Assembly: GCA_022484695.1 (NCBI GenBank)
Contig: JAKVKU010000010.1
Coordinates: 60,296 to 124,295 of the forward strand
DNA: 64,000 nucleotides
From: Lactobacillus sp.
GTDB taxonomy: Bacteria > Bacillota > Bacilli > Lactobacillales > Lactobacillaceae
Direction: 5' to 3'
This document shows, in pieces, positions 73 through 59,338 of the stretch (its first letter is position 1; each line of letters begins with the position of its first letter). The notes under the pieces are model-generated. The model was not told where the DNA came from and did not search any database. It saw only the letters and a program-made list of their open reading frames with translations. The translations under genes were made by a program, and so were the position numbers.

Positions 73-2742
73 TTAAAGTTGATAACGAATTAAGTGTTGG
101 CCGGACGTCAAGTTCAAGGCATTTTTGGTTAATGCTTGCGCTTGGTCATCGACGGTCACTGCTTGGGCCGTGTCTGGTAACGTGACCACGGCAGTGGTAT
201 TGGCTGGTACGGTGAGGGTTAAGGTCTCAGTCGTATCCAGGTGTTGATAATTTAATTGAATTAAGCCCTTACAACAAGGTGTTTGCAAAGTGAATCGTTT
301 AACTTCACCGGCCTGTACCCGAACACTGAACCGCTTAAAGGCTGGTTCTAAGGGCATGATCCCGGCAATGCCTTGAACAATGGTCAAACCTGGGGTGGCC
401 CCCCAAGGATGGGACAAGGTCAAGTTGGGTTTATAGTAATTGCTCCAGGCTTCAGGGGCGATGGTGGCCTTTAGTTGGTTCAAAATAGCTGCAAAGGTCT
501 TGGCATCTTTTTGATCGTCGCCATTTAACAATAGTCTTGAAGCCGCTTTAGCATGCCCGCTGTTTAATAAGCCCCTTAACATAAAGTAAATGAAGTAAAT
601 ACTACCGATAAATTCACCATCATTGGCTACAAATTTCGCCAGTTGATCGGCCATAGCCGGGGAATCATAAACCCCATAACAAAGGGCATAGGCTGACGCA
701 TGATGGGAAAAATGGGTATTGGGGGTTAAGTCCGCCTGCAGGGAATCATAAAACTTCCCGGCTTTAGGATCATATAGGCGGGCAATCATGGCTGCCTTTA
801 AATCGGCACTGCGTTTGGCATATAGGGCTTGATCCGCCTTTTGGCCAACCACGTCGGCGATTTGGGCCATTATTTGATAGACCCCCACATAAATCGCATT
901 AAATGGGGTATTATAAGTGCCCTCCACATAGCCATCCCGCTCACGGATAGGCCAGTCGATCAGGCCGTTATTCGTCACTAAATGTAGATTTTCATCATAG
1001 TTGTCGGCTTGTTTGGCCGGTCGCCAAGAGGCATTGGCATTATCAGTCTTGGTGGCGCCGCGCTTTAATTTTTCTTTGATCACATCATAGCGCGCTGCCA
1101 ATAACGTGGCATCCCCGGTATATAAGTAGTCATACCAAAGCATTTCCACATTAAACAGCTTGTAATCCTCGGGCCAAGTGGGATTATCCAATAAGTAATT
1201 GGCGGAATGCCGGGCCAAGGCATAGTTATCCGAAATCACATAACTGCTGTTGGCATTGACCAATAAGTCCCCTTCATAAGCCCGGCGTTCTCGGGCCTGG
1301 GAGTCCACATAGATATCCTGGTTCGTGGCCTTGATGGTGTATTTGGACAAGTCATATTCTTGATTTAAAAGGGGTTGGTCTGATTCAAACGTTCCCAATT
1401 GATCATCAAAGGCTTGGCGTTCCGCCCAGCCACTGATGGCATCCACTGGTAAGTCGCCTTGAAAACCCACGACTTCTACATAACGGAAATTCTTCATTTG
1501 TAACGTCGTAAATCGATTGTCACCCGCAACTAACTGCCAGGTTTCCACATAATCCGGGCCACAGGCTAAATGATGGCGGACGTGCCCGTCTGCTTGTAGC
1601 TGTTCACCGGCATAGATATTGACCTTTTGGGCCACGGGACTGGTTAACGCCACCGTCAAACTGCCAATGATCTCTTTACCTAAATCCACCAAGTAAGTGG
1701 TTGGGGCTAGCTTAGTGACCACCTTGGTGGGCTCAGCCGTTTTAAAGCGCTGCGTATTCTCAGCCCCATAGGGTAATAACAAGCCCCCATCTAAGGGAAC
1801 CGTTGGTGCGGTGACGGCAGCAGCTGGCCAAGTTCCATCAGCAAAACTAGGTTCAAAAAAACCCTGGGGATAAAAGTTCATATCCACATTTTCCTGGGGC
1901 ATTTCAAAATATTGACTGGCAATTTTGGCCCCAAAATCGCCAAAGGCACTGGATCCATCTAAAGCCCGCCAACTGGCATCACTGACCAGTAATTCTACCG
2001 GTGTCCCATCACTTTCAAAGGCCACCACTTGGGCAAAGAAGGCCCGCAGTTCACTGGCACCAGTGGCCAGGACACTAATTTGATTGTCTTGGGGTTGCAC
2101 CTGGTGGCTGATGTCAAAGGTCTGGTAGAAGTAAGCCGTTTGGTCTTGGTCATCATAATACTCATGGGGCCGGGCACTACCCACCCCCACACAGTGGCCA
2201 TTGACATATAGGTCAAAACTTTGGGCTAAGGTCACTTCATTACCCCGGGCCAAAACGCGGATATAAACACTGTCTATTTTGGCAGCAGGTAACTTAAATT
2301 GCGGACTCCGCAAAAAAGCGAAGTTGCCTAAAGCCGGCCGGCCATCTGGCGCTGCAGTTTGGCTGGCGGCCCAGATTCCAGGTGCTTGGAAGTGATCAAT
2401 GGCCGTTAAGAAGTGATTAGGCTTAGATAATTCACTGGTGTGGCCATGATTATCCCGGATGCGCACTTGCCAGTAATAAATTTTATTCTCGATGAGTAAG
2501 TCGTTTAAAGCCGGATAAGCCACCGCGGTATTTTCCCCAGAAGTTTCCCAGGGACTAACAGCTAAATAATTATGGTCAGCTAAAGCTTGTTTTGAAGTTC
2601 CAAAGACTAATTGGTACGCGGTTTGAAACGTATCATTAGCCGTACTTTCAACCCACCAGCTAAACTTGGGATCTTGCACCACGTTATAGGCCTGGGTCAA
2701 TAAATTCACCCGTAGATGGGTTGGTTGTTTTAATGAATCCAA
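73..2742 (-). CDS. alpha-L-rhamnosidase, glycoside hydrolase family 78
   Basis: This 889-aa protein should release terminal alpha-L-rhamnose from plant glycosides or polysaccharides. No signal peptide is visible, so it is probably cytoplasmic and acts on imported oligosaccharides or glycosides. The order fits GH78: an N-terminal fibronectin-like domain (about 1-110, ending in YYWQVRI), beta-sandwich modules to about 430, an (alpha/alpha)6 barrel (about 450-790) and a C-terminal beta domain. The acidic cluster D480, E485, D492 (in DSQARERRAYEGD) has the same 5- and 7-residue spacing as the catalytic D, E and D of characterised GH78 enzymes. The start is TTG at 2742, 10 nt after GGAAGG. It follows the LacI-type gene by 15 bp, so the two are probably cotranscribed. 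Confidence 0.88.
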   Translation of the reverse strand: MDSLKQPTHLRVNLLTQAYNVVQDPKFSWWVESTANDTFQTAYQLVFGTSKQALADHNYLAVSPWETSGENTAVAYPALNDLLIENKIYYWQVRIRDNHGHTSELSKPNHFLTAIDHFQAPGIWAASQTAAPDGRPALGNFAFLRSPQFKLPAAKIDSVYIRVLARGNEVTLAQSFDLYVNGHCVGVGSARPHEYYDDQDQTAYFYQTFDISHQVQPQDNQISVLATGASELRAFFAQVVAFESDGTPVELLVSDASWRALDGSSAFGDFGAKIASQYFEMPQENVDMNFYPQGFFEPSFADGTWPAAAVTAPTVPLDGGLLLPYGAENTQRFKTAEPTKVVTKLAPTTYLVDLGKEIIGSLTVALTSPVAQKVNIYAGEQLQADGHVRHHLACGPDYVETWQLVAGDNRFTTLQMKNFRYVEVVGFQGDLPVDAISGWAERQAFDDQLGTFESDQPLLNQEYDLSKYTIKATNQDIYVDSQARERRAYEGDLLVNANSSYVISDNYALARHSANYLLDNPTWPEDYKLFNVEMLWYDYLYTGDATLLAARYDVIKEKLKRGATKTDNANASWRPAKQADNYDENLHLVTNNGLIDWPIRERDGYVEGTYNTPFNAIYVGVYQIMAQIADVVGQKADQALYAKRSADLKAAMIARLYDPKAGKFYDSLQADLTPNTHFSHHASAYALCYGVYDSPAMADQLAKFVANDGEFIGSIYFIYFMLRGLLNSGHAKAASRLLLNGDDQKDAKTFAAILNQLKATIAPEAWSNYYKPNLTLSHPWGATPGLTIVQGIAGIMPLEPAFKRFSVRVQAGEVKRFTLQTPCCKGLIQLNYQHLDTTETLTLTVPANTTAVVTLPDTAQAVTVDDQAQALTKNALNLTSGQHLIRYQL

Positions 2743-3931: not shown

Positions 3932-5500
3932 TTATTTTTCAGATAGTTTTGCTTCTGCATGTTGAATCGCAGACCGTTCAGCTTTAGGAACGACGTTGTT
4001 ATTACCCCAAAGTTGGTCGTATTTGAAACCTGTTAATTGTTCAACAACAGATTTAGTGGCTGGATCAACATCAGCTTTTGCGCCCCCAGCTTTCAAACGA
4101 TCAATTTCAGCCCGTAATACTTTGTGATGGGCCCGGTCCAATTTGAAGAAGAACGTGGTGATAAAGGCAGCTAATAATAAGACGCCAGTCCCGATCAATA
4201 ACCACAAGATCAAACCACGCATGGCTGCAGGTGTTTGCGTTTTCGCATTTTCAACGAACCCACAAGCAGATAACACTAAACCAGTTAAGAATGGTGCTAA
4301 GGCAGAAGTTGTCTTACGAGCGAAGGTCATGATACCGGCAAAGACCCCTTCACGGCGTTCCCGCGTGACGATTTCATCAACGTCAGGAATGAAGGTATAA
4401 ACAGTCCAAGGTACATAACCGGTCCCTGAGTTGGAAACACCCCAAGTTAATTGCAAGGCATACAACCAACCAACGGCAGTCCCAGTACCCACTAATGGGG
4501 AGAAGCCTAAGAAGGCATAAGCCACGACGGTACCAAACATCAAGATATACATGATCCGCAATAGGCGGGATGGGCCTAATTTAGACATAATCTTAGGCCA
4601 TAACAAGTTACAAGGAATCCCGATAATAGAGCCGAAGGTCAAGATATTACTAGCCGTGACCGCATCGCTCTTCATAGCGTAAACCACGAAGAAGACATAA
4701 GTGGCACCTACAATATCCCGAGCAGTAAAGGAAGTTAAGTAAATCAATAGATGCAAGGCATAAGATTTGATCCGGAAAACAGAACCCATGTCTTTGATCA
4801 TGTTCCACAAGGTCTTCAAAGGATTTTCAGTTTTAACTTTACTTTCAGCGATGATGGCAGCTTTTTCAGCATCACTGCCGTCAGTCTCCCGTTCAAAGGT
4901 AGAGAAGTAAGTAATCGTGATCGCGATGATGAAGACAACGGCCAATAGGATACCAACGACTAAGAAGGCATTGGGGTTATTCTTGCCCATCACGGCAAAG
5001 ACCCGACCTGGTAACCAAGATGCTAAGAATGTGGCTAAAGCTGCCCAAAGCATTCTAGAACTGGATAATTTAGATTTGGTATCATAATCATCTGTCATTT
5101 CAGCAGCTAACGTTTCGTATGGAATCATAACCAACGCGGTGAATGCTTCCATTAATAAGTAAGTGACTAAGTAGAACCAGAAATTCATATGGGAAATCCA
5201 AATGATGACGTATAACACCATCAATGGAATGGCTAACAGTAAGAAGAAACGCCGCCGACCAAAGCGCCGGCCCATTTTAGTGGCGCCAAAGTGATCGGTT
5301 AAATAACCCATCAATGGACTGATAAAGGAATCGGCGACCCGGGCAATGGCTAAAATAGATCCCGCCAAAGCCGGTGATAATCCCCCGAATTCTGTGTAGA
5401 AGAACAACATCCAAGTGGATGCAACGGCCAAGGCCCCGTTGCCAAACAGGTCCGCAGCCCCGTAGCCAACGATGTTGCCCCAGTTAACTTTTCGCTTCAT
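3932..5500 (-). CDS. GPH-family glycoside/pentoside/hexuronide:cation symporter
   Basis: A 522-aa, 12-helix transporter of the GPH branch of the major facilitator superfamily. Typical features are the N-terminal GYGAADLFGNG segment and the cytoplasmic loop GATKMGRRFGRRRFF after the second helix (about residues 70-84). The hydrophilic C-terminus of about 60 residues is shorter than the IIA domain of LacS. The gene is divergent from the uidA-GH59 operon across a region with LacI-type operators. It is therefore the likely importer of the glucuronide, rhamnoside or galactoside substrates of the neighbouring hydrolases. The ATG follows AGGAGGG by 9 nt. The exact substrate is unknown. Confidence 0.87.
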   Translation of the reverse strand: MKRKVNWGNIVGYGAADLFGNGALAVASTWMLFFYTEFGGLSPALAGSILAIARVADSFISPLMGYLTDHFGATKMGRRFGRRRFFLLLAIPLMVLYVIIWISHMNFWFYLVTYLLMEAFTALVMIPYETLAAEMTDDYDTKSKLSSSRMLWAALATFLASWLPGRVFAVMGKNNPNAFLVVGILLAVVFIIAITITYFSTFERETDGSDAEKAAIIAESKVKTENPLKTLWNMIKDMGSVFRIKSYALHLLIYLTSFTARDIVGATYVFFVVYAMKSDAVTASNILTFGSIIGIPCNLLWPKIMSKLGPSRLLRIMYILMFGTVVAYAFLGFSPLVGTGTAVGWLYALQLTWGVSNSGTGYVPWTVYTFIPDVDEIVTRERREGVFAGIMTFARKTTSALAPFLTGLVLSACGFVENAKTQTPAAMRGLILWLLIGTGVLLLAAFITTFFFKLDRAHHKVLRAEIDRLKAGGAKADVDPATKSVVEQLTGFKYDQLWGNNNVVPKAERSAIQHAEAKLSEK

Positions 5501-5612
5501 GATATAAACCCTCCTAATACGTGATAATGAAACGGCAATAATGATGGCACTAACTATTTGTGAATATTAAAGCATTTTGCATTTAGTAAAAGATTATGAG
5601 TAACAAGCTTGC

Positions 5613-5636
5613 GTAAGCGTTTGCGTAATCGTTTAC
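5613..5636. promoter_or_regulatory. two abutting LacI-type operators
   Basis: Two 12-mers lie directly end to end: GTAAGCGTTTGC (5613-5624) and GTAATCGTTTAC (5625-5636). Both have the CG-centred, near-palindromic form of LacI/GalR-family operators. The second shares the core TAAACGATTA (reverse complement) with the operator at 11926-11939. The pair sits upstream of the symporter gene and over the -35 region of the promoter that would drive the structured RNA at 5654. Confidence 0.6.
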
Positions 5637-5653
5637 AAGCTTATAATATACTC

Positions 5654-5827
5654 AGATTTAGAAAAAAGCAATATGTTTTCGAAATTTTTACTAAACTTTT
5701 TTCAAAAACCTTTATCCGACAAAGCCGAGGCATGCTCAATTTATTACAGAAGTGTGGTAGACTATTAGGGGACATCGGTTCCTCTGCGGAACACCCCCAA
5801 GTCTGTGATTTCTTCACAGCTTTTTAG
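5654..5827 (+). ncRNA. candidate structured small RNA of unknown class
   Basis: A TATAAT box at 5642-5647 predicts a start near 5654. The transcript would be about 174 nt and end at a hairpin, CTGTGA-N5-TCACAG, followed by CTTTTTAG (5803-5827). Inside, AGACT (5758-5762) pairs with AGTCT, GGGG with CCCC, and GGTTCC with GGAAC as nested stems around a small loop. The 5' AAAAAGC can pair with the 3' GCTTTTT. The size, end-to-end pairing and independent promoter and terminator recall 6S-type RNAs, but I cannot confirm a family. No convincing protein is encoded here. It could instead be an attenuated leader of uidA. Confidence 0.4.
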
Positions 5828-5907
5828 TTTTGACTAGATTTCATCTTAGTTCTAATCGTTTTCGTCTGCTCATTCATACAGTTTTAGTAAAAACAAGTAA
5901 AAATATG

Positions 5908-5935
5908 TTGACTGTTCCCTTATAAATAGTAAAAT
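5908..5935 (+). promoter_or_regulatory. sigma-A promoter of the uidA-GH59 operon
   Basis: TTGACT (5908-5913), a 16-nt spacer and TAAAAT (5930-5935). The predicted start near 5942 coincides with the LacI-type operator at 5943-5955, which would let a repressor block initiation. Confidence 0.6.
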
Positions 5936-5942
5936 ATGACTC

Positions 5943-5955
5943 GTAAGCGCTTTAC
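5943..5955 (+). promoter_or_regulatory. LacI-type operator at the uidA transcription start
   Basis: GTAAGCGCTTTAC contains the perfect palindrome AAGCGCTT typical of LacI-family operators, positioned at the predicted start site. It could serve the LacI-type regulator encoded at 12029 or CcpA. The flanks do not match a canonical cre well. Confidence 0.55.
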
Positions 5956-5994
5956 TAATCGTCAATATATACTCATATCTGGAGGTTTTACAAC

Positions 5995-7815
5995 ATGGAA
6001 AAAGAACTACTCTATCCGGTGGCTAATGCCAACCGCCGCAATGAATCATTAGATGGGTTGTGGCAATTTAAATTTGATCCTGAAAGTATCGGTGAACAAG
6101 CTGACTGGCCCAAGGGACTTAATGACACCATAGATATGCCAGTCCCTTCTAGCTTCAATGACTACTTTACAGATAAAGATTCCCGGGAATACGTGGGGGA
6201 TTTCTGGTATGCCAAGCATTTCTTTGTTCCTGAAGAATGGCAGGATAAACTGGTGGGCCTGCGCTTTGACGCAGCTACCCACCGGGCTAAAATCTACGTC
6301 AACGGGCAATTGATCCGCAGCCATGAAGGTGGTTTCCTGCCCTTCACCGCCGAAATCAATAGCGCTGTTCATTTTGGGGCCGACAACTTAGTAGTAGTCA
6401 AATTGAACAATGAGCTTCACCGGGATCGTTTACCCGCCGGTGACACGGCAACTTTGCGCAATGGTCACAAGATGGCCAAGCCTTTCTTTGATTTTTATAA
6501 CTACGCTGGCTTAAACCGCAGTGTCCACTTATTGGCCATCCCCAAGACCCGCGTGATCGATTACAGTGTCACTTACGCCTTAAACGGCGCTGATGCCACC
6601 GTGCACTATACCGTCACTGCCAATCATCCTGCTGATACCACCGTACGCCTAAAAGATGCCACTGGTGCCATTGTAGCTGAAAGTAATGGCACAACTGGTG
6701 ATTTATTAGTAACAAATGCCCATTTATGGCAAGTGGGCCAAGCCTATTTATACCAACTGGTTATTGAATTACATCAAGACGGGGCAACTATTGACACTTA
6801 CAGTGCCGAAATTGGCATCCGGACCGTGGAAATTGCTGGCCATGAAATTCTCATCAATGGTCAATCCGTTTATCTGCGGGGCTTTGGCCGTCATGAAGAC
6901 AGTAATTTTGCCGGCCGGGGTTTTGACTTGAAAGTTGAGACCCGGGATTTGGCTTTGATGAAATGGATCGGGGCCAACTCTTATCGTTCTTCCCACTACC
7001 CTTATGATGAACAAGCTTACCAAATGGCCGACCGTGCTGGTATCTTGATCATCGATGAAGTCCCGGCCGTGGGCTTTAAGATGGCCGCCGCCAGCTTCTT
7101 AGGCGGCTTAGACCAAAACTTCTTTGACGGGGATTGGATCGATAGTTTATACGACCATCACCTAGACCAGGTCCAAGATTTGATCAAACGAGACAAAAAT
7201 CATCCTAGCGTCTTAGCTTGGAGTTTGTTCAATGAACCGGATACCTCTTCTGAAAAATGTGTGCCTTACTTCACCAAACTCTTCCAGGCTACGGCGGACT
7301 TAGATCCCCAAAAGCGGCCCCGGACCTTCACCTTGAATGAAGATGACACCTATGAAACTTCCCACGCCCTGCAGTTCCCAGACATTTACTTATTAAACCG
7401 CTATCCCGGCTGGTACCATAAATGGGGCTATGAAATCTCCGATGGTGAAGCTGGTTTACGGGATGAATTGGACCAGTGGGCCGCTTCTGATATCGACAAG
7501 CCCATCATCTTTTCCGAATACGGTGGCGACACCCAAGCCGGACTGCACAAATTGCCTTCAGTGATGTGGAGTGAAGAATATCAAACTGAATTGTTAGAAA
7601 TGTTCAACCGGGTCTTTGACAGCTATGATTTCATCCGGGGCGAACAGCCTTGGAATTTAGCTGATTTCCAAACCGTTGAAGGTAACATGCGGGTGGACGG
7701 CAATAAAAAAGGCCTCTTTACCCGGGAACGTCAGCCAAAAGCAGCTGCTTTTTACCTGAAAAAGCGTTGGCATGACCTCCCCTTAGATTACAAAGCCAAA
7801 GGAGCCAAGTCATGA
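5995..7815 (+). CDS. uidA: beta-glucuronidase (GH2)
   Basis: This 606-aa enzyme hydrolyses beta-D-glucuronides in the cytoplasm. It aligns along its full length with E. coli UidA: N-terminal jelly roll (LDGLWQFKFD), immunoglobulin-like middle domain, then a TIM barrel. The acid/base is E414 (FNEPDT) and the nucleophile is E508 (FSEYGG). The N570-K571-K572 segment (GNKKGLFTR) is the N-x-K glucuronate-recognition motif that separates beta-glucuronidases from beta-galactosidases of GH2. The ATG follows GGAGG by 9 nt. The stop overlaps the GH59 start (ATGA), so the two are translationally coupled. Confidence 0.9.
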   Translation: MEKELLYPVANANRRNESLDGLWQFKFDPESIGEQADWPKGLNDTIDMPVPSSFNDYFTDKDSREYVGDFWYAKHFFVPEEWQDKLVGLRFDAATHRAKIYVNGQLIRSHEGGFLPFTAEINSAVHFGADNLVVVKLNNELHRDRLPAGDTATLRNGHKMAKPFFDFYNYAGLNRSVHLLAIPKTRVIDYSVTYALNGADATVHYTVTANHPADTTVRLKDATGAIVAESNGTTGDLLVTNAHLWQVGQAYLYQLVIELHQDGATIDTYSAEIGIRTVEIAGHEILINGQSVYLRGFGRHEDSNFAGRGFDLKVETRDLALMKWIGANSYRSSHYPYDEQAYQMADRAGILIIDEVPAVGFKMAAASFLGGLDQNFFDGDWIDSLYDHHLDQVQDLIKRDKNHPSVLAWSLFNEPDTSSEKCVPYFTKLFQATADLDPQKRPRTFTLNEDDTYETSHALQFPDIYLLNRYPGWYHKWGYEISDGEAGLRDELDQWAASDIDKPIIFSEYGGDTQAGLHKLPSVMWSEEYQTELLEMFNRVFDSYDFIRGEQPWNLADFQTVEGNMRVDGNKKGLFTRERQPKAAAFYLKKRWHDLPLDYKAKGAKS

Positions 7816-13065: not shown

Positions 13066-15070
13066 ACGGTCGCCCATAACTTTGATGGGGATCTTGAATT
13101 CGTTTAAACATGTGCTCCAAGTCTTTTTCGGTGAATTGGACCAGTACTGGGCGGCCATGGGGGCAATTAAAGGGATTTTCAGCCTGGGCTAAATGCCCTA
13201 AAAGTGCCTTAGCTTGTAGGGAGTCTAGATGATGATTGGCCTTAATGGCCCGCTTACAGCTCATCATAATGGCCGTTTTCTCCCGGAACTTCGCCACGGT
13301 CATTTGTTTATTGGCCAAGACTTCATCTACCATTTCTTTAATGGTATCTTCTTCTTGACCAGCTTTAAACCAAGTGGGATGAGTGTGGACCACATAACTA
13401 TTTTGGCCAAAAGGCTCCAGATGCAACCCCACTTGGGCTAAAATATCCAAACGATTTTTAATCGCCAAGAAATCAGCGCTATTATAGTCCAAGACAATGG
13501 GTACCAACAAATTTTGCTGGTCTTGGCTGACTTCGCCGATGGCTTGGCGATATTTCTCATAATTCACCCGTTCTTGGGCCGCATGCTGATCCACCAAGTA
13601 AAAACCATCGGCACTTTCTGCAATCAAGTAGGTCCCATGAATTTGGCCAATATAGGTCAAATTGGGAAATCTGGGCTGCTGACTTTGAGCACTGGCCAAA
13701 TCCCGCAAAGTAGCTACTGATTGATCAGCTTCATCTCCAAAGGGCAAAGCCGGCTTTTCAGCGCTATACCGCTGGTCCCATTTTGCCAAGCGGGCCGGGT
13801 CTTCAAAAATCGGCGTGGCATTTAAATCCGCCGGCCGCACTAGGCTGTCGGCTTGACTTTGGGGCTGGCGTTGATAGCTGGTCCCAGCGGCTTCTTGAAT
13901 CTGGGGTGCTGGCTTAGCTGGCCTAACCTGGGGCGTCGGCACCACCTGGGGTTGGGCTTTTTCTGGAACTTGTTGTTGGCCCTGCAAAAATTGCGCACTG
14001 GCTTGGTCTAAACGCATGGCCAATTGCTCTTTTTTGATTTTGGGCTGACTGCTATTTAAATTAGCCACCGCATCGGGAATCAAATTTTGAGCCCCTAGTA
14101 CTTGCTGGATATTGGTGGTGATCAGCTGGCTTAATTCATCTTCTTTGCTCAAGCGGACCTCTTGTTTAGTGGGATGCACATTCACATCTACTAAAAAGGG
14201 ATCCATGGTCAAATTTAAAACCGCCAGCGGATAGCGTCCCACCATTAACTTACTGCCATAGCCGGCAATCAGGGCCCGGGTCAAGGCGTAATTTTTAATA
14301 TAACGGCCATTGATGAACAAGGAGACGAAATTCCGATTGGCCCGGGTCAATTTAGGCAAAGACACGAAGCCACTTAATTTGAAATCCAAATCAGAACCCG
14401 TAACTTCGATCATTTGCCGACCCACGCCAATGCTGTAAATCTCAGTGATGTCCCGCAATAAATCCCCGGAACCACTGGTCTTTAATAAAATGTTGTGATT
14501 GTTGGCAAAGGTCACGGCAATGTTGGGATGGGCCAGGGCTAAGCGGTTCACAATGTCAGCAATATGGGACAGTTCCGTATTCACGGACTTCACATATTTT
14601 AGTCGGGCGGGCGTGTTATAAAATAAATCCTTCACCGCCACATAGGTCCCCTGTCTGGAGGACTGACTCTTTTGGTCCAGGACTTTGCCCCCGGCCAGTT
14701 CAATTTGCGTCCCTAACCCGGCATCCGTGGCCGTGAGCATGGTGACTTTGGCCACCGCCGCAATACTGGCTAAGGCTTCGCCCCGAAACCCCAGGGAATT
14801 GACCCGGAATAAATCATCACGATTGCGGATTTTACTGGTGGTATGGGGCAAGAAAGCCAGGGCTACTTGGGCTTTGGGGATGCCCAGGCCGTTATCACTA
14901 ATGGTAATGGCCTGCAAACCGGCATCTTCAACCCCCACGTCAATTTGGGTAGCTTTAGCATCAATGGCATTTTCCACAAGTTCCTTCACCACAGAAGCGG
15001 GCCGCTCAATAACTTCCCCAGCGGCAATTTGGTTGCTTAATTGTTCTGATAGTTCATGAATGTCTGCCAT
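13064..15070 (-). CDS. mutL: DNA mismatch repair protein MutL
   Basis: A 668-aa GHKL ATPase that links MutS to strand incision. The N-terminus has the ATPase motifs (ELVENAIDA, DNGLGI, FRGEALASI). A long low-complexity linker rich in Gln, Pro and Ala covers about 340-440. The C-terminal endonuclease motifs of methyl-independent MutL proteins are all present: DQHAAQERVNYE, SCKRAIKANHHL and CPHGRP. A nicking MutL is therefore expected, as usual in Firmicutes. It starts 9 bp after mutS ends. Confidence 0.97.
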   Translation of the reverse strand: MADIHELSEQLSNQIAAGEVIERPASVVKELVENAIDAKATQIDVGVEDAGLQAITISDNGLGIPKAQVALAFLPHTTSKIRNRDDLFRVNSLGFRGEALASIAAVAKVTMLTATDAGLGTQIELAGGKVLDQKSQSSRQGTYVAVKDLFYNTPARLKYVKSVNTELSHIADIVNRLALAHPNIAVTFANNHNILLKTSGSGDLLRDITEIYSIGVGRQMIEVTGSDLDFKLSGFVSLPKLTRANRNFVSLFINGRYIKNYALTRALIAGYGSKLMVGRYPLAVLNLTMDPFLVDVNVHPTKQEVRLSKEDELSQLITTNIQQVLGAQNLIPDAVANLNSSQPKIKKEQLAMRLDQASAQFLQGQQQVPEKAQPQVVPTPQVRPAKPAPQIQEAAGTSYQRQPQSQADSLVRPADLNATPIFEDPARLAKWDQRYSAEKPALPFGDEADQSVATLRDLASAQSQQPRFPNLTYIGQIHGTYLIAESADGFYLVDQHAAQERVNYEKYRQAIGEVSQDQQNLLVPIVLDYNSADFLAIKNRLDILAQVGLHLEPFGQNSYVVHTHPTWFKAGQEEDTIKEMVDEVLANKQMTVAKFREKTAIMMSCKRAIKANHHLDSLQAKALLGHLAQAENPFNCPHGRPVLVQFTEKDLEHMFKRIQDPHQSYGRP

Positions 15071-47599: not shown

Positions 47600-47692
47600 T
47601 ATAAACATAAGACACATGTCTCAACATACTTAGTGCTGCTTCCTTCCGGACCTGACACGATTCGTAAGTGAAGCATTGTCTCATGGCCTTTC
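47600..47692 (-). ncRNA. ffs: signal recognition particle RNA (small type)
   Basis: The minus strand carries the diagnostic domain IV loop, GTCAGGTCCGGAAGG followed by AAGCAGCAC. The closing stem CATGAGACA / TGTCTTATG (47685-47677 with 47614-47606) delimits a RNA of roughly 90 nt. Its place between tadA and dnaX is the usual Firmicutes position. The exact ends are estimated. Confidence 0.92.
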
Positions 47693-52950: not shown

Positions 52951-53107
52951 TTGAGTTTCACCTCCGTATAATTTTTTGGCATCGGAGTATAAAAAAACTC
53001 CATGCCATAAGACATAGAGAAATTACTTAACGTGTTTCCTCGGCAGGGTATTGAGACATTAATGTCACCTGAGTCTTAGGCAATAAAACAACCGAGACTC
53101 ATCATAT
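52951..53107 (-). promoter_or_regulatory. ribosomal protein L10 leader (autoregulatory)
   Basis: The minus strand has TTGCCTAAGACTCAGGTGAC, then CCCTGCCGAGG, the conserved L10(L12)4-binding kink-turn blocks. At 53019-52991 CTCTATG-N8-CATGGAG is followed by seven Ts, an attenuator terminator. A competing hairpin, GGCATGGAGT ... ACTCCGATGCC, covers the same bases. The layout supports feedback attenuation. Confidence 0.85.
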
Positions 53108-53152: not shown

Positions 53153-53365
53153 TTACATGGTGGCAAAGACCTTGGGCCATTTGCGCCGGGCAAAAGCATT
53201 CAAGCGCATCTCAAGCCAAATACCGATGAAACCGGCCATTATCGCCACTAAGGTACTATGGTGGACGGCCATATAGACCCAATATTGATCCACAAGGGCA
53301 CAGATCACCACAATACTGCCTTTGATAAGCCAATACCCACAGAATAATCTAATGATAAAGCCCAT
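53153..53365 (-). CDS. small two-helix membrane protein, unknown function
   Basis: 70 aa with two hydrophobic segments (about 3-25 and 30-50) and a basic tail (ARRKWPKVFATM). It overlaps the end of the TPM-domain gene by one base, so the two are coupled. No family recognised. Confidence 0.6.
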   Translation of the reverse strand: MGFIIRLFCGYWLIKGSIVVICALVDQYWVYMAVHHSTLVAIMAGFIGIWLEMRLNAFARRKWPKVFATM

Positions 53366-54192
53366 TATAAGCCGCCCCCTAACCCGTTATTATTGTTGTT
53401 TTTATCCATAATTTGGCCGATGACATAGCCTTCAAAAAAGCCGTCATCGTAATGTTCGTTTGGCCCAGGTCCGGCGGAAGAATCGTCATCGTTACGGGCC
53501 ACAAATTTGATGACAATCAATATTAGCCAAACAATTATAATACCAGTTTTGATACCATTAATCGAATCCCAATCGAAGCTTCCCTGTAAATTGCTAGGTT
53601 GGTCCACATAATGTTTTTTAGTAAAGGTGGCCGTGCGGTTAAATACCTTCATGATGTTTTTAGCAGATATATCCGACTTCTTTATAAAAGCCATGGTGTA
53701 CCAAATTTGAAAATCAGATATATCCCCGCCCGTTGCAATCTTAATTTCATAATGGCCGGCGGTTGGATAAACATAAATCAGATTAACGCCCGGCACTTTA
53801 GTGAGGTTTTCATCAACGTTGACTGGCGCTTTGGGATCTGAGCCAAAAATCGAATACTCGAAGGGATCACTGCCCCCAGAAACCGCATCAGGCAGGTTTG
53901 TGGTTAATATATTAACCATTTGATAATAACCAGACCTAGGCTTCTTTGGAAAAGTGTAAAGAAACACCTGCACATTATCATTGGTTAAATTGTCAGCATG
54001 CCGTGTTGCTAGGCTTTTGTTAACGTCATGAATATGCTCAATATCCCCATCGCTTAAAATACCCATATAGTCTTTAACTTGAAAGTCCACATACGGATCA
54101 TCCGCAAACACGTCTGTGGGCCGGTCAATTCCAATAGTTATGAGCAGGCCCGCCAATATACTGATGACTAGCCAAAATCCCCGCTTCTTCAA
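53365..54192 (-). CDS. TPM-domain membrane protein
   Basis: 275 aa. Signal peptide or anchor (KKRGFWLVISILAGLLITIG), an extracytoplasmic TPM (Psb32/MOLO1-like) domain (VKDYMGILSDGDIEHIHDVN...), one membrane helix (about 218-236) and an Asp/Asn/Gly-rich cytoplasmic tail. The TTG at 54192 has GGGAG 8 nt upstream. The TTG 15 nt earlier overlaps that site. The role is unknown. It lies between the cas9 island and rplJ. Confidence 0.75.
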   Translation of the reverse strand: MKKRGFWLVISILAGLLITIGIDRPTDVFADDPYVDFQVKDYMGILSDGDIEHIHDVNKSLATRHADNLTNDNVQVFLYTFPKKPRSGYYQMVNILTTNLPDAVSGGSDPFEYSIFGSDPKAPVNVDENLTKVPGVNLIYVYPTAGHYEIKIATGGDISDFQIWYTMAFIKKSDISAKNIMKVFNRTATFTKKHYVDQPSNLQGSFDWDSINGIKTGIIIVWLILIVIKFVARNDDDSSAGPGPNEHYDDGFFEGYVIGQIMDKNNNNNGLGGGL

Positions 54193-54296
54193 ACCCTCAT
54201 CTCCCAATGATTGGTGCTTCGTTTCTTTTTATCATAGCATAATTTTAATCTTAGATAGTCATAAATTCACAAATATGTACATTGAAATCTACGGCA

Positions 54297-54325
54297 AACA
54301 AAAAGCGCAGCCTAAAAGCCACGCT
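54297..54325 (-). terminator. Rho-independent terminator of the crRNA-like RNA
   Basis: AGCGTGGC-N6-GCTGCGCT is a fully paired 8-bp stem (two G-U pairs) followed by TTTTGTTT on the minus strand. It lies 15 nt after the repeat-like segment. The upstream TPM gene reads away from it. Confidence 0.75.
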
Positions 54326-54339
54326 AAATAAAGCCATCC

Positions 54340-54375
54340 GATTTTGAATCTATTGAACTGACATGCATCCAGAAT
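54340..54375 (-). repeat. solitary CRISPR-repeat-like sequence
   Basis: 36 nt on the minus strand, beginning ATTCTGGATGCATGTCAG and ending TTCAATAGATTCAAAATC. TTGAATCTATTGA and CATGCA are shared with the tracrRNA anti-repeat on the opposite (plus) strand. The first base is A where type II-A repeats have G. Confidence 0.6.
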
Positions 54376-54452
54376 ATCAGGAGACAAATTTTAAATAAAT
54401 TTATCTAGAACTCACATATAATCTGGGGTAATTGCATGAATGCAACGATAGA

Positions 54453-54481
54453 ACTATATCTCCTAATTAAGGGATTGTCAA
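54453..54481 (-). promoter_or_regulatory. consensus sigma-A promoter for the crRNA-like RNA
   Basis: TTGACA (54481-54476), exactly 17 nt, TATAGT (54458-54453): a perfect -35 and 5 of 6 at -10. The predicted start near 54446 is followed by the palindrome TTGCAT-TC-ATGCAA (54443-54430). Confidence 0.7.
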
Positions 54482-54692
54482 ACTAGTTTCAATCATTGCT
54501 ATTCAAATCCAGTACTTATTGCTCGGACACACATCCAGAATATGACCGTAGTGGTGAAATTGCGCCAAACATTATCGGCCATGACGAAAACCTTCTCACT
54601 GATTAGAACTATGCAAACGAGCTTCAAAGATTGAAGAACTTTTTGACATATTATATGATGGCTTCAACGAAGACGAACACTCAAGATAGAAG
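54480..54692 (+). pseudogene. decayed small gene
   Basis: One frame reads ...THPEYDRSGEIAPNIIGHDE then NLLTD and a stop at about 54606. After a frame change, KIEELFDILYDGFNEDEHSR and a stop follow. The two pieces read like consecutive parts of one acidic protein interrupted by a frameshift. The family is not recognised. It precedes the small gene at 54741, so the pair may be a remnant of a plasmid- or phage-type two-gene unit. Confidence 0.45.
54506..54541 (-). repeat. second, weaker repeat-like sequence
   Basis: On the minus strand ATTCTGGATG is identical to the start of the 54375 repeat. The following bases differ but still pair with the anti-repeat through G-U pairs at most positions (about 19 of 24). 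It overlaps the decayed coding frame (HPEY codons) and lies upstream of the consensus promoter, so it may be coincidental. Confidence 0.25.
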
Positions 54693-54740
54693 CCTCTCTT
54701 AAAAGGCATCGGACGGTATTTATGAATCGGAGGTATTATT

Positions 54741-54911
54741 ATGACCGACCATCAGAAAAAAGAATATATGGTCTCACGTGACGAACGACCGCTCACAGAA
54801 GCTGAAAAAGCCCATATTAAAGAAATTGAAAGCCAACCTGGTTATAAAGAGCGGCATGAAGCATTCCTAAGACGTTTTGAGAAACGGTTCAATACTGACA
54901 AATTAAGCTGA
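54741..54911 (+). CDS. small charged protein, unknown function
   Basis: 56 aa: MTDHQKKEYMVSRDERPLT and ending FLRRFEKRFNTDKLS. GGAGG is 8 nt before the ATG and a terminator follows 19 bp after the stop, so it has the signals of a real gene. It is highly charged and helical, resembling small antitoxin or plasmid accessory proteins, but I cannot assign it. It sits between the crRNA-like RNA and the tracrRNA, so an accessory role in that system is possible. Confidence 0.55.
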   Translation: MTDHQKKEYMVSRDERPLTEAEKAHIKEIESQPGYKERHEAFLRRFEKRFNTDKLS

Positions 54912-54929
54912 AAGTTGAAATCGCAATCA

Positions 54930-54953
54930 AGCCGCAACCATGCGGTTTTTTTA
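54930..54953 (+). terminator. terminator after the small charged protein gene
   Basis: AGCCGCA-ACCA-TGCGGTTTTTTT hairpin. Confidence 0.85.
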
Positions 54954-55106
54954 ATGCCCTTTCCCCCGCGTTACGAGTGCTAAAGTTACAACATGGGGTC
55001 GCTTGAATCCACATGAATTGATATCCATATCATGTCAAAAATTCACTTCATTTTTTCTCTTGATATGTTAAACTATTTTCGTAGGCTCATCCCCTACAAA
55101 GACCAA

Positions 55107-55248
55107 TCTTGAATCTATTGATCTGGCATGCAGTGTCAGAACAAAACAAGGTCATTGATCAAGTTTATAGCGCTTCTTTTGAAAGTGGGGCTTATGCCCA
55201 TACATATAAAGAAATCCTATGCCACGTTATCTGGCATAGGATTTTTTT
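55107..55248 (+). ncRNA. tracrRNA of the Cas9 system
   Basis: The anti-repeat is 55109-55142, with an upper stem TTGAATCTATTGATCTGGCA then TGCA, a GTGU bulge and a lower stem CAGAAC. The nexus follows: AAGG-TCATTGATCAAG with a GGUC/GAUC stem. Next come two small hairpins (CGCTT ... AAGTG, GGGC-TTAT-GCCC) and a 12-bp terminator, AATCCTATGCCA ... TGGCATAGGATTTTTTT. It converges on cas9, and its terminator T-run reaches the cas9 stop codon. The 5' end is uncertain. A hairpin GTAGG ... CCTAC lies at 55081-55097. The layout matches type II-A tracrRNAs. Confidence 0.8.
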
Positions 55249-58200
55249 ATATATCCCGCAGAGTTTCAATGCGTTCAACCGTATTAAATAATCCGGTGAA
55301 AGAACTATCAATTAATTTATCCCTATCACTCAAGGTAACACCTTTTGGATAAATCAGTCGACCCCAGCTGGCTGTTAATCCGATTTGTTTTAAATCGCCA
55401 CTAGCTGCATTTGCATGCAACGCACTTAATAACCTACTAAATACTTGTTGTTTTTGAGCAAATTCTAACTCATTAAATTGATCAATTTTATCAATCAATT
55501 TTTCTAAACTAGTTTGATGAGTTTTCAACGGGTAGTTTTTCTGTGCTTGATCAATAACATCTCTTAACAAACTTTCAAAGCGTTGATCCACACCATCAAA
55601 GTGTGATTCAATCTGTAATCGATTTTCAGCCGTATCTTTATCTGGTGCCCCTAACAGAACCGAAATATCTTGATAGTCCACTCTCGGTAACCATAGTTGA
55701 CGAAAATTGTGCAGTTCAGTGGCTGAAGAGACCGTGACTAAGGCACCATCTTTAAGCAATAACTGGCCATAAGGCACGTGCGCCCGAATGATCTTTGCTT
55801 GGTCGTCCCCAAGTACAGTCTGTACCTTCTTTTCAAGAACACTGGCATCCTTTTTGATTTCCGGTAACCAAAGACGCAGCACATTCACTAAGCGGAATTT
55901 CTTCTTGGCATATACCAAAGCAGCATAAGCAGGCTTCAGGGAACCAAAGCCACCATATAAGTCAGCTACTTTGTCCTGACTTAACGCAACTGCCACGTGC
56001 TTATCCCCACGACCATAACGGGTTGCATTATAAAGTGGCCCAGTCTGGTTTAAAGTCATCTTAGTCACCAGCATCTTCTTGTAGTCCATAACTTGTTGTA
56101 AATAAGCTTCATCTGCGCCTGTCCAAACAATTTCTCCGGTGGTTTGGTTGGTCTGAAATTGAATATTAGGATTGGCCATTGACCCCACAATAAACGTAAA
56201 TAGCCAGGCCGCTTGGGATTGGCCAGTTTTTGCCTGAGTGTGTTGCATACTAGCGTTGGTATAACGACTATAGATAGCACCGGCCGCAGCACTAACGCGC
56301 CCCTTTTCCGTGATACCCACCTTACGACTGAACTCGCCAACAATGGTCAATAACAAAGCATCATGGGCATGATGATAGTCATTGATAACTTGATTCTTAC
56401 GAATGCCCAGATACCGGCGCATGTCGGCCGTGAGCTCAGACGGTAAAATTTCAACTTTTACATCCCTATAATACGCTCGGATCAACGCGGCTACATTTTG
56501 ATTCATTGGGTGGTTGTCTACCAAAGATTGCGCCATAAAACGCTCCTTTTGATCCGCGGAGAAATCCTGCATCTTTGTAGTCAAACTGTTAAATTTACCA
56601 GTGCTCATTAAACCCAAAGCCTTTAACTGCTGCCACCAGTCTTTGCGGGCCGCAATGATGGCGGGTTTGAGCATAGGAGAATTGGGTTGGCGGGCAGTGA
56701 TTTTAGTATGGACCAACACCCGATTAGCTAAACTATTGTTCTTAACATAGGCCTTGGGAATAATATGATCAATTTGATAATCGCTGGCTAATTTTTCCAG
56801 ATCAATTGCTTGACCCGTATAAATATCTTTGCCCTGTTGCAGATAATAGAGATATAAGCGATCATCTGCCAATTCTTCTTTAGTAATAGTTTTCAAATCT
56901 GTAACAAAGTCAGCATATTCTTTTTTCAAGGCAGGTTGACTATAAAGCTGCTGCAAATGATTAACCCGAGCATTCGTTAAAATAGCTGGCTGGCTCTCCT
57001 GGGTAAATCCAAGGTATATCCGATTGGGTTCATTTCCCACGGCCCGGGTGATTTCAGCGATAATATGAAAGGCTTGATTGATGCCCCGTTTGATATTCTT
57101 TGGCCCAGGCATATCTAAAATCCGTTGTTTCAAACTCAGATTATTTTCGGCACCGCTATTTTCTTGGTCCAACCAAGCCTTGACCCCATATCGGTCTTTC
57201 ATATCATTCACAATTTCCATAAAGTTCATTTGGGTGCTATATAACGTTTCCAGAATTGAATATTGCCCCGGTTCCCGCTCGCCTTCTAAAGCCACGTGAA
57301 CGATTTTACTGGTCAATAATTTTTGAGATAGTCGGCCCCAGCCAGTATAATGTGTTCGGGCCAGTTGCTTAACCTGCTTTCCCGACAACTCTGGGCGCAA
57401 TTTCAATTGGCGTTGTAACGCCTTACGGTCCTCAAAAACCGTTTGTAATTCCACAATTTGTTCCAGCAGTGTTAAATTTTTAGGATCATCTACAAACTCA
57501 GCGCCAAATATCCCCACAAAATAATGGTAGGTGCTCAGTGAGCTGTTTAATTTACGTTCATTCCCATTAGCAAAACTACTCAATGTTACCGGACTGCCAA
57601 ATTCTGTGGTCAAATATTCTTCAATACGTTTAACCGTAACGGTTTTATTGGCCTTAAAAACATGTTCAAAAATATCTTGCTTCACGTCAACAGCTAAGCG
57701 GTGTTTTTCAATGCGCAGATTATTCAATTCTTGCAAGACATTAAATTCTTGATAGACTAGAGAATTCTTAGGTAGGGTGGGTTCCCCCAGCAAATAAGCA
57801 TCGGTGCCAGTCATGCGCCGAATAAATTCGTTCCCAGATTTATCCCGATCAACTTTTTCCGTGTAGTTCCAAGGGGTGATGGCGCCCGATTCTTTAGGAA
57901 CCATCCAATGATTCGCGTTATTTCCCACTACTTTGTATTTAGGCACTAAAGGCCCCACATAATAAGGGACTCGAAACGTCACTAAACCCTCAATTCGATT
58001 CAGCGTCTGACCATCTTGTTCAAAAGTAGCCTTTAAGAAAGGATAGTATTGCCCCTGATTTTCAATGATTTGCTGCAATTCGTTTAAATGGAGTTGATGG
58101 GGAATCGTGCCATTCGCTTGGGTGCGTTGACGGGGCAAGAATTCATTATTGTCGATCTTCAGTGAAAATTCCATCTTTTTAGCCGCTGGGATGTCGGCTG

Positions 58201-59338
58201 CTTCAATGGCTTTAGCGAACTTCTTACCTGCTTTTGAACGCAAGTCTTCATTGTCAGTCATCAAGTCAGCATAGGCTAGGCGCAATGTCCGATTATTTGC
58301 CGGCGTTAATACATGGGATTTGATGTAGGCCCAATCGTTGCGATGGCTATTATAACGGGCCACCATGGCGGCTGAAACTGAGGTGGCATCCCCCAACAAG
58401 CTCTTTAAAGTCAGGCCGCTAAAAGCGGTATAAAGCGTTGTCAAAAATTCGCGCTGTTCGTCAGATAAAGCCGGATTATCTCCAAAGGCCGCTAATTTCT
58501 CTTCTAAATCATTATCGGTAAATTTGAATTTAAAATCTTTTTGGTCTTCTTTAGGAATCCCAGCCAATTGAAAAATAGCCATTAAGTCCACTTGGTTCCC
58601 TACCAAGGCGCTTAAAATCGCCTTAAATATCCTTTTATTAGGTTGCTGGGCGGCATTATTGAACCCCATTAGGGCCATATTCGCCCTATCTGTAGGGGAT
58701 AAGGTCATGTTCGTTAAGCCTTTAAAGATGACTTGTTGGTCCACTAGATCCACAATTTTAAAATCTGGGAAGGCTTGGTCGTAAAAGGCAGCCATTTGGC
58801 CAATAAAAGTATTGATGTCAAAGGCTGCGCTGGCATTGATTGGCCCTTCACCTCTGAGAAAATTGCCTCGAAACTTAATAATATGATGGATAGCCAAATA
58901 AACTTCTCTTAAATCATGTTGTTTAGTATCCGTCATTAATTTTAGCCGTAAATGATAAATGGTGGGATAGGTCTCATGAAATTGGTGGTCCAAAGCAACA
59001 TCGTCAAACAAAGGGGCCGCTGAATACTTGCCCTTGTTTTGCTGATCTGCTGGATGCACCCAGGCATACTTTAACCGCGGTAAAAAGTTAGCATCTACCT
59101 TAGCCAATTCGGAGGCAAATACTTCGTTCAATGCCCGCAGCCGCCAACGCCGGCGACTTAAACGCCGCCGGGTAGTCCGAAAATCACGGCGTTCTTCAGC
59201 AGTTTTGGCTGGGTTGAATAAGCGCACGCCTAAGATATTGTTCCCCTTAGCCCGCAGTAAACGATAGTGATCATCAACGGCTGCAAAACCGACACTATTC
59301 ATGCTAATGTCTAGACCTAAACTATAATCTATTGTCAT
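55247..59338 (-). CDS. cas9: Cas9 homologue (type II-A-like) with two degenerate nuclease sites
   Basis: 1363 aa, the same size as S. pyogenes Cas9 (1368). Order: RuvC-I (YSLGLDISMNSVGFA, D10 kept), arginine-rich bridge helix (about 50-70), REC lobe (YPTIYHLRLKLM, IKFRGNFL), RuvC-II, HNH, RuvC-III (YHHAHDALL, H990 and D993 kept) and a full PAM-interacting C-terminus. In RuvC-II, IYLGFTQESQ has G777 where IVIEMARENQ has E762. In HNH, DHII keeps D857/H858, but the ungapped N863 position is T881 (HTKITARQ). Nuclease activity is therefore doubtful, while RNA and DNA binding regions look intact. No cas1, cas2 or csn2 is near. The ATG follows GGAG by 7 nt. It is placed between rplA and the TPM gene. 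Confidence 0.92.
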   Translation of the reverse strand: MTIDYSLGLDISMNSVGFAAVDDHYRLLRAKGNNILGVRLFNPAKTAEERRDFRTTRRRLSRRRWRLRALNEVFASELAKVDANFLPRLKYAWVHPADQQNKGKYSAAPLFDDVALDHQFHETYPTIYHLRLKLMTDTKQHDLREVYLAIHHIIKFRGNFLRGEGPINASAAFDINTFIGQMAAFYDQAFPDFKIVDLVDQQVIFKGLTNMTLSPTDRANMALMGFNNAAQQPNKRIFKAILSALVGNQVDLMAIFQLAGIPKEDQKDFKFKFTDNDLEEKLAAFGDNPALSDEQREFLTTLYTAFSGLTLKSLLGDATSVSAAMVARYNSHRNDWAYIKSHVLTPANNRTLRLAYADLMTDNEDLRSKAGKKFAKAIEAADIPAAKKMEFSLKIDNNEFLPRQRTQANGTIPHQLHLNELQQIIENQGQYYPFLKATFEQDGQTLNRIEGLVTFRVPYYVGPLVPKYKVVGNNANHWMVPKESGAITPWNYTEKVDRDKSGNEFIRRMTGTDAYLLGEPTLPKNSLVYQEFNVLQELNNLRIEKHRLAVDVKQDIFEHVFKANKTVTVKRIEEYLTTEFGSPVTLSSFANGNERKLNSSLSTYHYFVGIFGAEFVDDPKNLTLLEQIVELQTVFEDRKALQRQLKLRPELSGKQVKQLARTHYTGWGRLSQKLLTSKIVHVALEGEREPGQYSILETLYSTQMNFMEIVNDMKDRYGVKAWLDQENSGAENNLSLKQRILDMPGPKNIKRGINQAFHIIAEITRAVGNEPNRIYLGFTQESQPAILTNARVNHLQQLYSQPALKKEYADFVTDLKTITKEELADDRLYLYYLQQGKDIYTGQAIDLEKLASDYQIDHIIPKAYVKNNSLANRVLVHTKITARQPNSPMLKPAIIAARKDWWQQLKALGLMSTGKFNSLTTKMQDFSADQKERFMAQSLVDNHPMNQNVAALIRAYYRDVKVEILPSELTADMRRYLGIRKNQVINDYHHAHDALLLTIVGEFSRKVGITEKGRVSAAAGAIYSRYTNASMQHTQAKTGQSQAAWLFTFIVGSMANPNIQFQTNQTTGEIVWTGADEAYLQQVMDYKKMLVTKMTLNQTGPLYNATRYGRGDKHVAVALSQDKVADLYGGFGSLKPAYAALVYAKKKFRLVNVLRLWLPEIKKDASVLEKKVQTVLGDDQAKIIRAHVPYGQLLLKDGALVTVSSATELHNFRQLWLPRVDYQDISVLLGAPDKDTAENRLQIESHFDGVDQRFESLLRDVIDQAQKNYPLKTHQTSLEKLIDKIDQFNELEFAQKQQVFSRLLSALHANAASGDLKQIGLTASWGRLIYPKGVTLSDRDKLIDSSFTGLFNTVERIETLRDI

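Follow-up and report, generated by a model that had tools for sequence, protein, structure and literature searches.

Based on comparison with the intact locus of the sister species Agrilactobacillus composti, we propose that the type II-A Cas9 of a lactic acid bacterium, Agrilactobacillus, is a natural dCas9 that was probably kept for RNA-guided DNA binding after the rest of the immune system had apparently been lost, a reading to which we give roughly even confidence. The main observations behind it are that each nuclease site lacks one metal ligand, that erosion is focused on the nuclease lobe, that the reading frame is open and that the tracrRNA has preserved stems. The features discussed are collected in Table 1.

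Table 1. Features of the cas9 locus, in positions of the window (the whole stretch of 64,000 nucleotides that was analyzed)
Feature	Position	Strand	Remarks
Terminator-like hairpin, then T run	54304..54325	-	
Residual degenerate CRISPR repeat, 36 nt	54340..54375	-	Predicted tracrRNA pairing
Spacer-like stretch, 20 nt	54376..54395	-	Putative guide, 5' of residual repeat
Promoter-like TTGACA-17-TATAGT	54453..54481	-	11/12 matches; identical hexamers in A. composti
Second repeat remnant	54506..54541	-	More degenerate
56-aa ORF	54741..54911	+	Occupies place of A. composti cas1-cas2-csn2-array
tracrRNA region	55066..55252	+	Anti-repeat from 55103, nexus 55150-55160, stem-loops
Terminator-like inverted repeat of tracrRNA region	55204-55252	+	
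cas9 gene	55247..59338	-	1363 aa, predicted nuclease-dead
PAM-interacting (PI) domain, residues 1071-1363	55250..56128	-	Conserved
RuvC-II/HNH/RuvC-III, residues 770-1070	56129..57031	-	Eroded segment
Thr881 codon (SpCas9 N863 position)	56696..56698	-	HNH metal ligand lost
Gly777 codon (SpCas9 E762 position)	57008..57010	-	RuvC-II metal ligand lost
Bridge helix and REC lobe, residues 61-769	57032..59158	-	Conserved
RuvC-I, residues 1-60	59159..59338	-	D10 kept, G12S; synonymous divergence raised

Predicted loss of cleavage

The cas9 reading frame starts with ATG and contains no internal stops, and Pfam detects the bridge helix, REC, RuvC, HNH and PI domains, in agreement with a preliminary description of this DNA as encoding a full-length Cas9 with a frame open over 1363 codons. 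Pfam matches and conserved near-invariant sites likewise bear out its statement that the bridge helix, REC lobe and PAM-interacting domain are kept. That description was silent on the strand; cas9 lies on the minus strand. No sigma-70-like promoter was found upstream of cas9 on the coding strand, either here or in A. composti.

The same description had read the substitutions E762 to Gly777 and N863 to Thr881 from the sequence and proposed an alignment with type II-A Cas9 proteins, in which G777 and T881 indeed stand at the E762 and N863 positions. Position 777 is Glu, and position 881 Asn, in 217/217 aligned homologues listed (two capped searches, the top 120 rows from each, minus duplicates and near-self rows); Cas9s from the PDB, A. 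composti and the outgroup G003 were further alignment partners. In the phmmer alignment to the PDB Cas9s a gap lets either I880 or T881 face N863, neither of which is Asn, and the gap-free alignment to A. composti identifies T881 as the counterpart. AlphaFold models, which span residues 1-1200, predict a short helix at 878-881 in A. composti and none in the present Cas9, at modest confidence. Retained are D10, D839 (857 here), H840 (858), N854 (872), H982/H983 (989/990), H985 (992) and D986 (993), so that one metal ligand per nuclease is lost, not all. As to the relaxed flanking residues also claimed, the letters quoted for GLDISMNSVGFA are correct, but only G12S within GLDISMNSVGFA falls at a near-invariant site.

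With one metal ligand missing per nuclease site, the sequence strongly predicts that cleavage is lost. The earlier statement that loss of these ligands disables each nuclease holds for SpCas9 N863A, whose activity is reported to have disappeared, and in part for E762A, whose activity was significantly weakened (PMC8112549). Residual weak cutting or nicking is in our view very improbable: E762A weakens rather than abolishes RuvC activity and D10, H840, D839, H983 and D986 are kept here, yet the outcome for N863A and the change of another twelve near-invariant sites between residues 770 and 1070 argue against it.

Locus organization and orphan status

In A. composti the equivalent chromosomal place, part of an aligned block of 52.9 kb with 90.4% identity, is organized as cas9-tracrRNA-cas1-cas2-csn2-array. 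The type II-A system of A. composti DSM 18527 (L006) shares with the present locus its position, a Cas9 of 83% identity, a tracrRNA region of about 91% identity and the repeat family, but retains both catalytic residues together with cas1, cas2, csn2 and the array, all four of which are absent here. The 56-aa ORF had no match in Pfam or PADLOC. The genome holds one cas9 copy, and a search of the whole assembly (98.7% complete, 25 contigs) for the repeat core with up to three mismatches gave the residual repeat, the anti-repeat and nothing else. The sole Cas1 match is part of another CRISPR-Cas system, of type I-C, which is located on contig C5 (cas3, cas4, cas5, cas7, cas8c, cas1, cas2). The label 'orphan' given to this Cas9 beforehand is thus apt: a single cas9, no adjacent cas1, cas2 or csn2, and no cognate array found in the assembly. 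In G002, a genome of the same genus, cas9 is reduced to a stub of 85 aa, indicating that loss of cas9 is ordinary in the genus. The genes flanking cas9 in G003 were assigned by position and resemblance.

The missing cas1, cas2, csn2 and array, present in A. composti, and the stub in G002 also favor a rival explanation that we consider possible though distinctly less probable, namely that Cas9 is a decaying relic. Selection on it would have ceased after loss of the array and adaptation genes, nuclease residues would have gone first by chance, and the frame would still be open only through recency of the loss. The separate type I-C system of the strain counts on the same side, as does the outcome of the target search with an 11-nt seed in genomes G000 and G001 (see below).

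Erosion of the nuclease lobe and selection

The pattern of erosion speaks against such a relic, since it is concentrated at near-invariant sites of the nuclease lobe. Identity to the A. composti Cas9 is 63% in residues 770-1070, compared with 92% in REC and 82% in PI. Near-invariant sites are changed at 14/45 positions in residues 770-1070 versus 2/80 in bridge helix, REC and PI together (Fisher p 9e-6). Besides G777 and T881, these fourteen comprise twelve sites including R780, R937, E941-I945 and R983; A. composti is changed at 2/45, both positions being altered here too and belonging to the twelve. When RuvC-I is added to residues 770-1070, 15 near-invariant sites are changed here, against a maximum of 6 among 102 homologues. 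A second site set with 51 nuclease-lobe sites gave nine changes here, none in A. composti and one in G003, while 196 of 198 other full-length homologues listed are changed at three sites or fewer; the two exceptions (15 and 16 changes, with gaps scored as changes) have no bridge-helix domain in their Pfam lists. For the binding part of this set the changes are 3/76 here, two in A. composti and one in G003. With 61 outgroups and a 90% threshold, 11/51 nuclease sites are changed here versus 2 in A. composti, and 6/114 REC sites versus 4, with RuvC-I (1/18), bridge helix (0/8) and PI (0/12) nearly unchanged here. Terminal branches measure 0.621 here versus 0.072 in A. composti for the nuclease region and 0.135 versus 0.102 for PI; REC too evolves faster here (0.077 versus 0.024), which is a point in favor of the relic.

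The dN/dS comparison across orthologues proposed in the preliminary description was made with codon models of three taxa that rely on G003, an outgroup at saturation (dS about 4). For the binding part omega came out low, at 0.08 on the branch of the present Cas9 in the first model, with omega=1 rejected (2dlnL 127.5). For the nuclease part this first model, in which the outgroup branch is bounded and background omegas are unreliable, showed no difference (0.18 vs 0.18), whereas a second model with a wider bound on that branch gave 0.22-0.26 here versus 0.07-0.08 in A. composti; 2dlnL against equality was 4.5, or 16.3 when equal dS was imposed. Had the whole gene been unconstrained long enough to accumulate the nuclease excess, the gene should have taken 11-16 stop hits and its binding part about 136 excess changes; 0 and 13 are observed, and neutral decay of the whole cas9 since nuclease loss fits these figures poorly. 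Taken alone, the contrast in derived changes, 63:22 for the nuclease and 38:25 for the binding part, falls short of significance (p 0.11), and zero stops inside the nuclease segment have a p of 0.11 to 0.03. A further argument against the relic comes from the tracrRNA, where both bases of two pairs changed, C-G to U-A, on the branch of the present locus (polarized by G003) and the stems were preserved, though these compensatory changes may predate or postdate nuclease loss.

Synonymous divergence is raised in exactly the nuclease segments (36/70 versus 124/328 at fourfold sites, 52/115 versus 130/536 at other codons), which suggests recombination. Same-amino-acid codons of residues 1-60 and 770-1070 differ from A. 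composti more than those of 44 of the 45 other genes of the block, and the codon-model dS of residues 770-1070 is about three times that of REC and twice that of PI. Both observations favor a second, rather unlikely alternative, in which these two segments were recombined from a distant, possibly already dead, Cas9 into an ordinary gene. Yet the present Cas9 and that of A. composti are sisters in the REC, nuclease and PI trees, and this placement, together with the short nuclease branch of A. composti, means that no donor lineage is seen; moreover, the erosion would stay unexplained unless the donor itself was a maintained dead Cas9. Given the recombination signal, most of the constraint recorded in the low binding-part omega may predate nuclease loss, and a mosaic history weakens the timing argument for retention. 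Selection for binding without cleavage, offered at first as the simplest reading, is hence upheld in part: nuclease-lobe erosion, the low binding-part omega, the compensatory tracrRNA changes and the lack of stops support it, while the missing array and adaptation genes and the mosaic segments count against it.

A candidate guide RNA

The tracrRNA is present by sequence and structure, and Rfam gave no match over 54150-55300. Neither the tracrRNA nor the nearby repeat-bearing element figured in the preliminary description. No single guide of the tracr-L type was seen, there being no inverted repeat that connects upstream sequence with the anti-repeat.

The repeat-bearing element is the counterpart of the leader-distal array end in A. 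composti, the array itself being gone here; its identity to A. composti is about 95%, compared with the 90.4% of the aligned block, and the residual repeat is its least conserved part. Pairing of this repeat with the local tracrRNA is predicted at -41.6 kcal/mol (mean of 1000 shuffles -17.9, best -34.4). The A. composti tracrRNA gives a similar value (-38.6), and among unrelated 43-mers of the window one attains -38.3. A consensus scan found 16 promoter-like sites versus 14.1 expected in the scanned region, that of the element being among the two best. As in scaRNA genes, the element combines promoter- and terminator-like flanks, as judged by consensus scan only, with partial complementarity to the tracrRNA, and we regard 54304-54481 on the minus strand as a candidate scaRNA-type single guide.

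A course of events can be proposed in which cas1, cas2, csn2 and the array were lost and cas9 and the tracrRNA kept, the two being loaded by the one remaining repeat-bearing RNA. This putative unit would run from its promoter-like sequence (54481-54453) through the repeat (54375-54340) to the terminator-like hairpin (54325-54304). The loaded Cas9 would bind matching DNA without cutting it and block transcription, as scaRNA- and tracr-L-guided Cas9 do. That both nucleases died and the array was discarded in favor of a dedicated repressor, with a single scaRNA-like guide under its own promoter and terminator, is a tentative proposal that we hold doubtful.

Target search

A 13-nt seed of the candidate guide with at most one mismatch gave four non-self matches in G000 and three in G001 (array-end copy excluded), all with one mismatch; one match per genome shares the sequence TTTGTCTCCTGGT. 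An 11-nt seed had no match in G000 and G001 beyond the CRISPR remnants. Shortened to 10 nt, the seed matched outside those remnants at three places in G000 and at two in G001; these make up two orthologous pairs, where about one such pair is expected by chance for genomes about 90% identical (our own estimate).

The pair L045/L048 is a lead for an operator of the candidate guide. It lies in an unannotated non-coding stretch and closely follows a promoter-like sequence recognized by eye, in an orientation that would direct the guide to the non-template strand. At L045 (G000, contig C5, 42789) the match extends to 12 nt, comprising guide and first two repeat bases, in both sister species, and one position covaries, guide and site having changed together. 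Among four genomes the stretch was found in G000 and G001 only, and it matched no Rfam family. Against the lead, the 3' flank in standard register reads ATGTAATC (GTGTAATC in A. composti), in which position 2 is not G. Protospacer flanks are TGGAAAC for A. composti and, for one G003 protospacer, AGGTTTC or TGGCTTC depending on the plasmid, with GTGTTGG for a second G003 spacer (31 nt); the L045/L048 flank matches better only with the guide shifted by one base. Searched in phage records, neither the A. composti nor the G003 array gave a match; four exact-pattern scans with parts of four A. composti spacers likewise found nothing in viral contigs.

Relation to known systems

CRISPR interference rests on engineered dCas9, the Cas9 of scaRNA-guided repression is catalytically intact, and TldR proteins are a different, nuclease-dead and TnpB-like family. 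Repression by scaRNA:tracrRNA-guided Cas9 is described for Francisella and predicted for other type II systems (PMC6199352). These systems resemble the present locus in having a repeat-bearing unit near cas9 with promoter- and terminator-like signals and the capacity to pair with the tracrRNA, whereas the unit proposed here is a candidate. In S. pyogenes, tracr-L represses Pcas, an 11-nt guide match being sufficient (PMC11417352); Cas9 acts there as a repressor, as proposed here, but the long tracrRNA serves as single guide for an active Cas9. TldR proteins, likewise relatives of RNA-guided nucleases, have a demonstrated function as RNA-guided transcription factors (PMC13418256), whereas for the present Cas9 such a function is a proposal. 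Among the titles and abstract openings listed in searches of open-access literature, preprints excluded, none showed a natural Cas9 dead in both domains.

The intact sister locus, the maintained tracrRNA and the small number of candidate guides would make natural exaptation of Cas9 as a repressor directly testable, and the test system for this question would be a lactic acid bacterium.

Erosion of the Cas9 nuclease region

The preliminary description correctly observed the substitutions in the window Cas9, Gly777 at the position of S. pyogenes E762 and Thr881 at that of N863, and the erosion of this protein, centred on the nuclease, is real. At 143 sites that are at least 95% conserved among 102 homologues, 17 are changed: 14 of 45 in residues 770-1070 (RuvC-II, HNH and RuvC-III), 1 of 18 in RuvC-I and 2 of 69 in REC, with none in the bridge helix (0/5) or the PI domain (0/6). 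The Cas9 of the sister species A. composti, whose distances to relatives are ordinary, is changed at 2 of the 45 and 1 of the 69, all three positions being altered in the window protein too. Identity between the two proteins is 63% in residues 770-1070, 92% in REC and 82% in PI. Polarised changes in the nuclease region number 63 in the window and 22 in A. composti (p = 1e-5); in the binding part, i.e., bridge helix, REC and PI, they number 38 and 25 (p = 0.13). By itself, the difference between these ratios does not reach significance (p = 0.11). Codon models gave an omega of 0.22-0.26 for the window and 0.07-0.08 for A. composti in the nuclease part; the window values for REC and PI were 0.10-0.15, those of A. 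composti 0.05-0.06 (REC) and 0.11-0.21 (PI). With the outgroup branch bounded, the nuclease difference was gone, and omega = 1 was rejected for nuclease and binding parts alike.

Had the whole gene been free of constraint while the nuclease part built up its excess of 41 to 63 changes, 11 to 16 stop hits and 13 to 41 indels (assuming one per 10 to 20 substitutions) would be expected; the lower figure of 41 also implies that the binding part should carry about 136 excess changes. Observed are no stops, no frameshifts and 13 such changes; for the nuclease segment by itself, zero stops has a p of 0.11 to 0.03. Among codons for the same amino acid, 36/70 fourfold and 52/115 others differ from A. 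composti in the nuclease region, compared with 124/328 and 130/536 in the rest of the gene, and the divergence of this region exceeds that of 44 of the 45 other compared genes. Recombination with a deeper allele is the natural reading of this raised divergence; trees of the Cas9 parts show no other donor clade. Such an event qualifies the decay test, since the binding part may have been constrained mostly prior to nuclease loss.

Organization of the locus

The genus of the window is Agrilactobacillus, since a genome listed in the same genus (G001) and A. composti DSM 18527 share an identical Cas9 gene. In A. composti, the same chromosomal place holds cas9, tracrRNA, cas1, cas2, csn2 and a CRISPR array in which eight repeats are perfect and several degenerate, between rplA (identified by eye) and a hypothetical gene. 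The window is collinear up to 55063, just beyond the tracrRNA, and resumes from 54540; in between, cas1, cas2, csn2 and the array are absent, and about 520 bases of different sequence stand instead. The small ORF there, for which a ribosome site looks plausible by eye, is followed by a terminator-like hairpin and found no match in Pfam or PADLOC. Across the whole assembly, the repeat core (up to three mismatches) hits the residual repeat and the anti-repeat and nothing else; the strain retains a distinct type I-C system that has an array of its own. Of the other genomes compared, G003 has what looks like an intact II-A locus with array, the genes beside cas9 being read by position and resemblance, and the cas9 of G002, which belongs to the genus, is an 85-aa stub. 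About 1 kb from this stub lies an ORF resembling, by eye, a group II intron reverse transcriptase.

The hypothetical gene behind the CRISPR locus is 49% identical between the sister species and gave no Pfam match; for the 45 further genes compared across the block, including cas9, identity is 82.7-100%.

Coordinates of features in the window and in related regions
Feature	Sequence	Position	Strand	Description
cas9	window	55247-59338	-	type II-A, 1363 aa
tracrRNA	window	55066-55252	+	
Candidate guide element	window	54481-54304	-	near-consensus promoter-like site, spacer-like stretch, degenerate repeat, terminator-like hairpin
56-aa ORF	window	54741-54911	+	within the replacement sequence not present in the A. 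composti locus
Hypothetical gene	window	53365-54207	-	
Hypothetical gene	L006 (A. composti cas9 locus)	13215-14069		
Small SRP RNA; ribosomal protein L10 leader	window	47601-47687, 52982-53098	-	both ordinary
First spacer	L006	12258-12287		
Last spacer	L006	12786-12815		
cas9 stub and reverse transcriptase-like ORF	L010 (G002 cas9 locus)	4440-7070		
Transcript-like unit	L045 (contig C5 of the source genome)	1430-1725		unannotated, non-coding

Candidate guide and target

The tracrRNA region has a stable predicted fold (z = -5.2). Two base pairs, the first in the nexus and the second in the stem that follows, are U-A in the window where A. composti and G003 both have C-G, and these two differences indicate that the structure has been maintained by double changes on the window lineage. 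Apart from its position at the former array's end, the candidate guide element agrees with the scaRNA sequence definition in PMC6199352. Its identity to the A. composti sequence is about 95%, higher than in 9 of 14 other intergenic stretches examined (range 0.83 to 1.00); the two of these that contain known RNAs reach 0.97 and 0.996. The predicted pairing of the residual repeat with the tracrRNA is -41.6 against a shuffle mean of -17.9, with one unrelated 43-mer of the window at -38.3. Within the element, this repeat is the least conserved portion, an argument against a function. In the last A. composti spacer, some of the downstream element's guide-like stretch and the start of its repeat are duplicated, as if sequence had been exchanged between array end and element.

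The 11-nt guide seed has no match in either sister genome outside CRISPR remnants. One 10-nt seed site that both sister species share, located behind the promoter-like site of a non-coding stretch, reaches 12 nt with a co-varying base when two repeat bases are counted; in S. pyogenes, a guide match of 11 nt was enough for repression (PMC11417352). The flank of this site, in the standard register, mismatches the only protospacer flank obtained for A. composti, and we regard the site as a candidate Cas9 target, a lead only. The transcript-like unit on contig C5 is conserved in A. composti, shows by eye a terminator-like hairpin as well as a promoter-like TTGACA-18-TATATT, and has no match in Rfam. 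In Latilactobacillus sakei, three records of conjugative plasmids match the first A. composti spacer at 30/30 positions, with the 3' flank TGGAAAC in both records whose flank was read.

Overall reading

A search of the open-access literature, preprints excluded, found no comparable natural dead Cas9, which is a weak negative. We consider a natural dCas9 the best single reading of the window protein, at even chances of being right, and propose its guide and its operator as candidates, both of them hypotheses.
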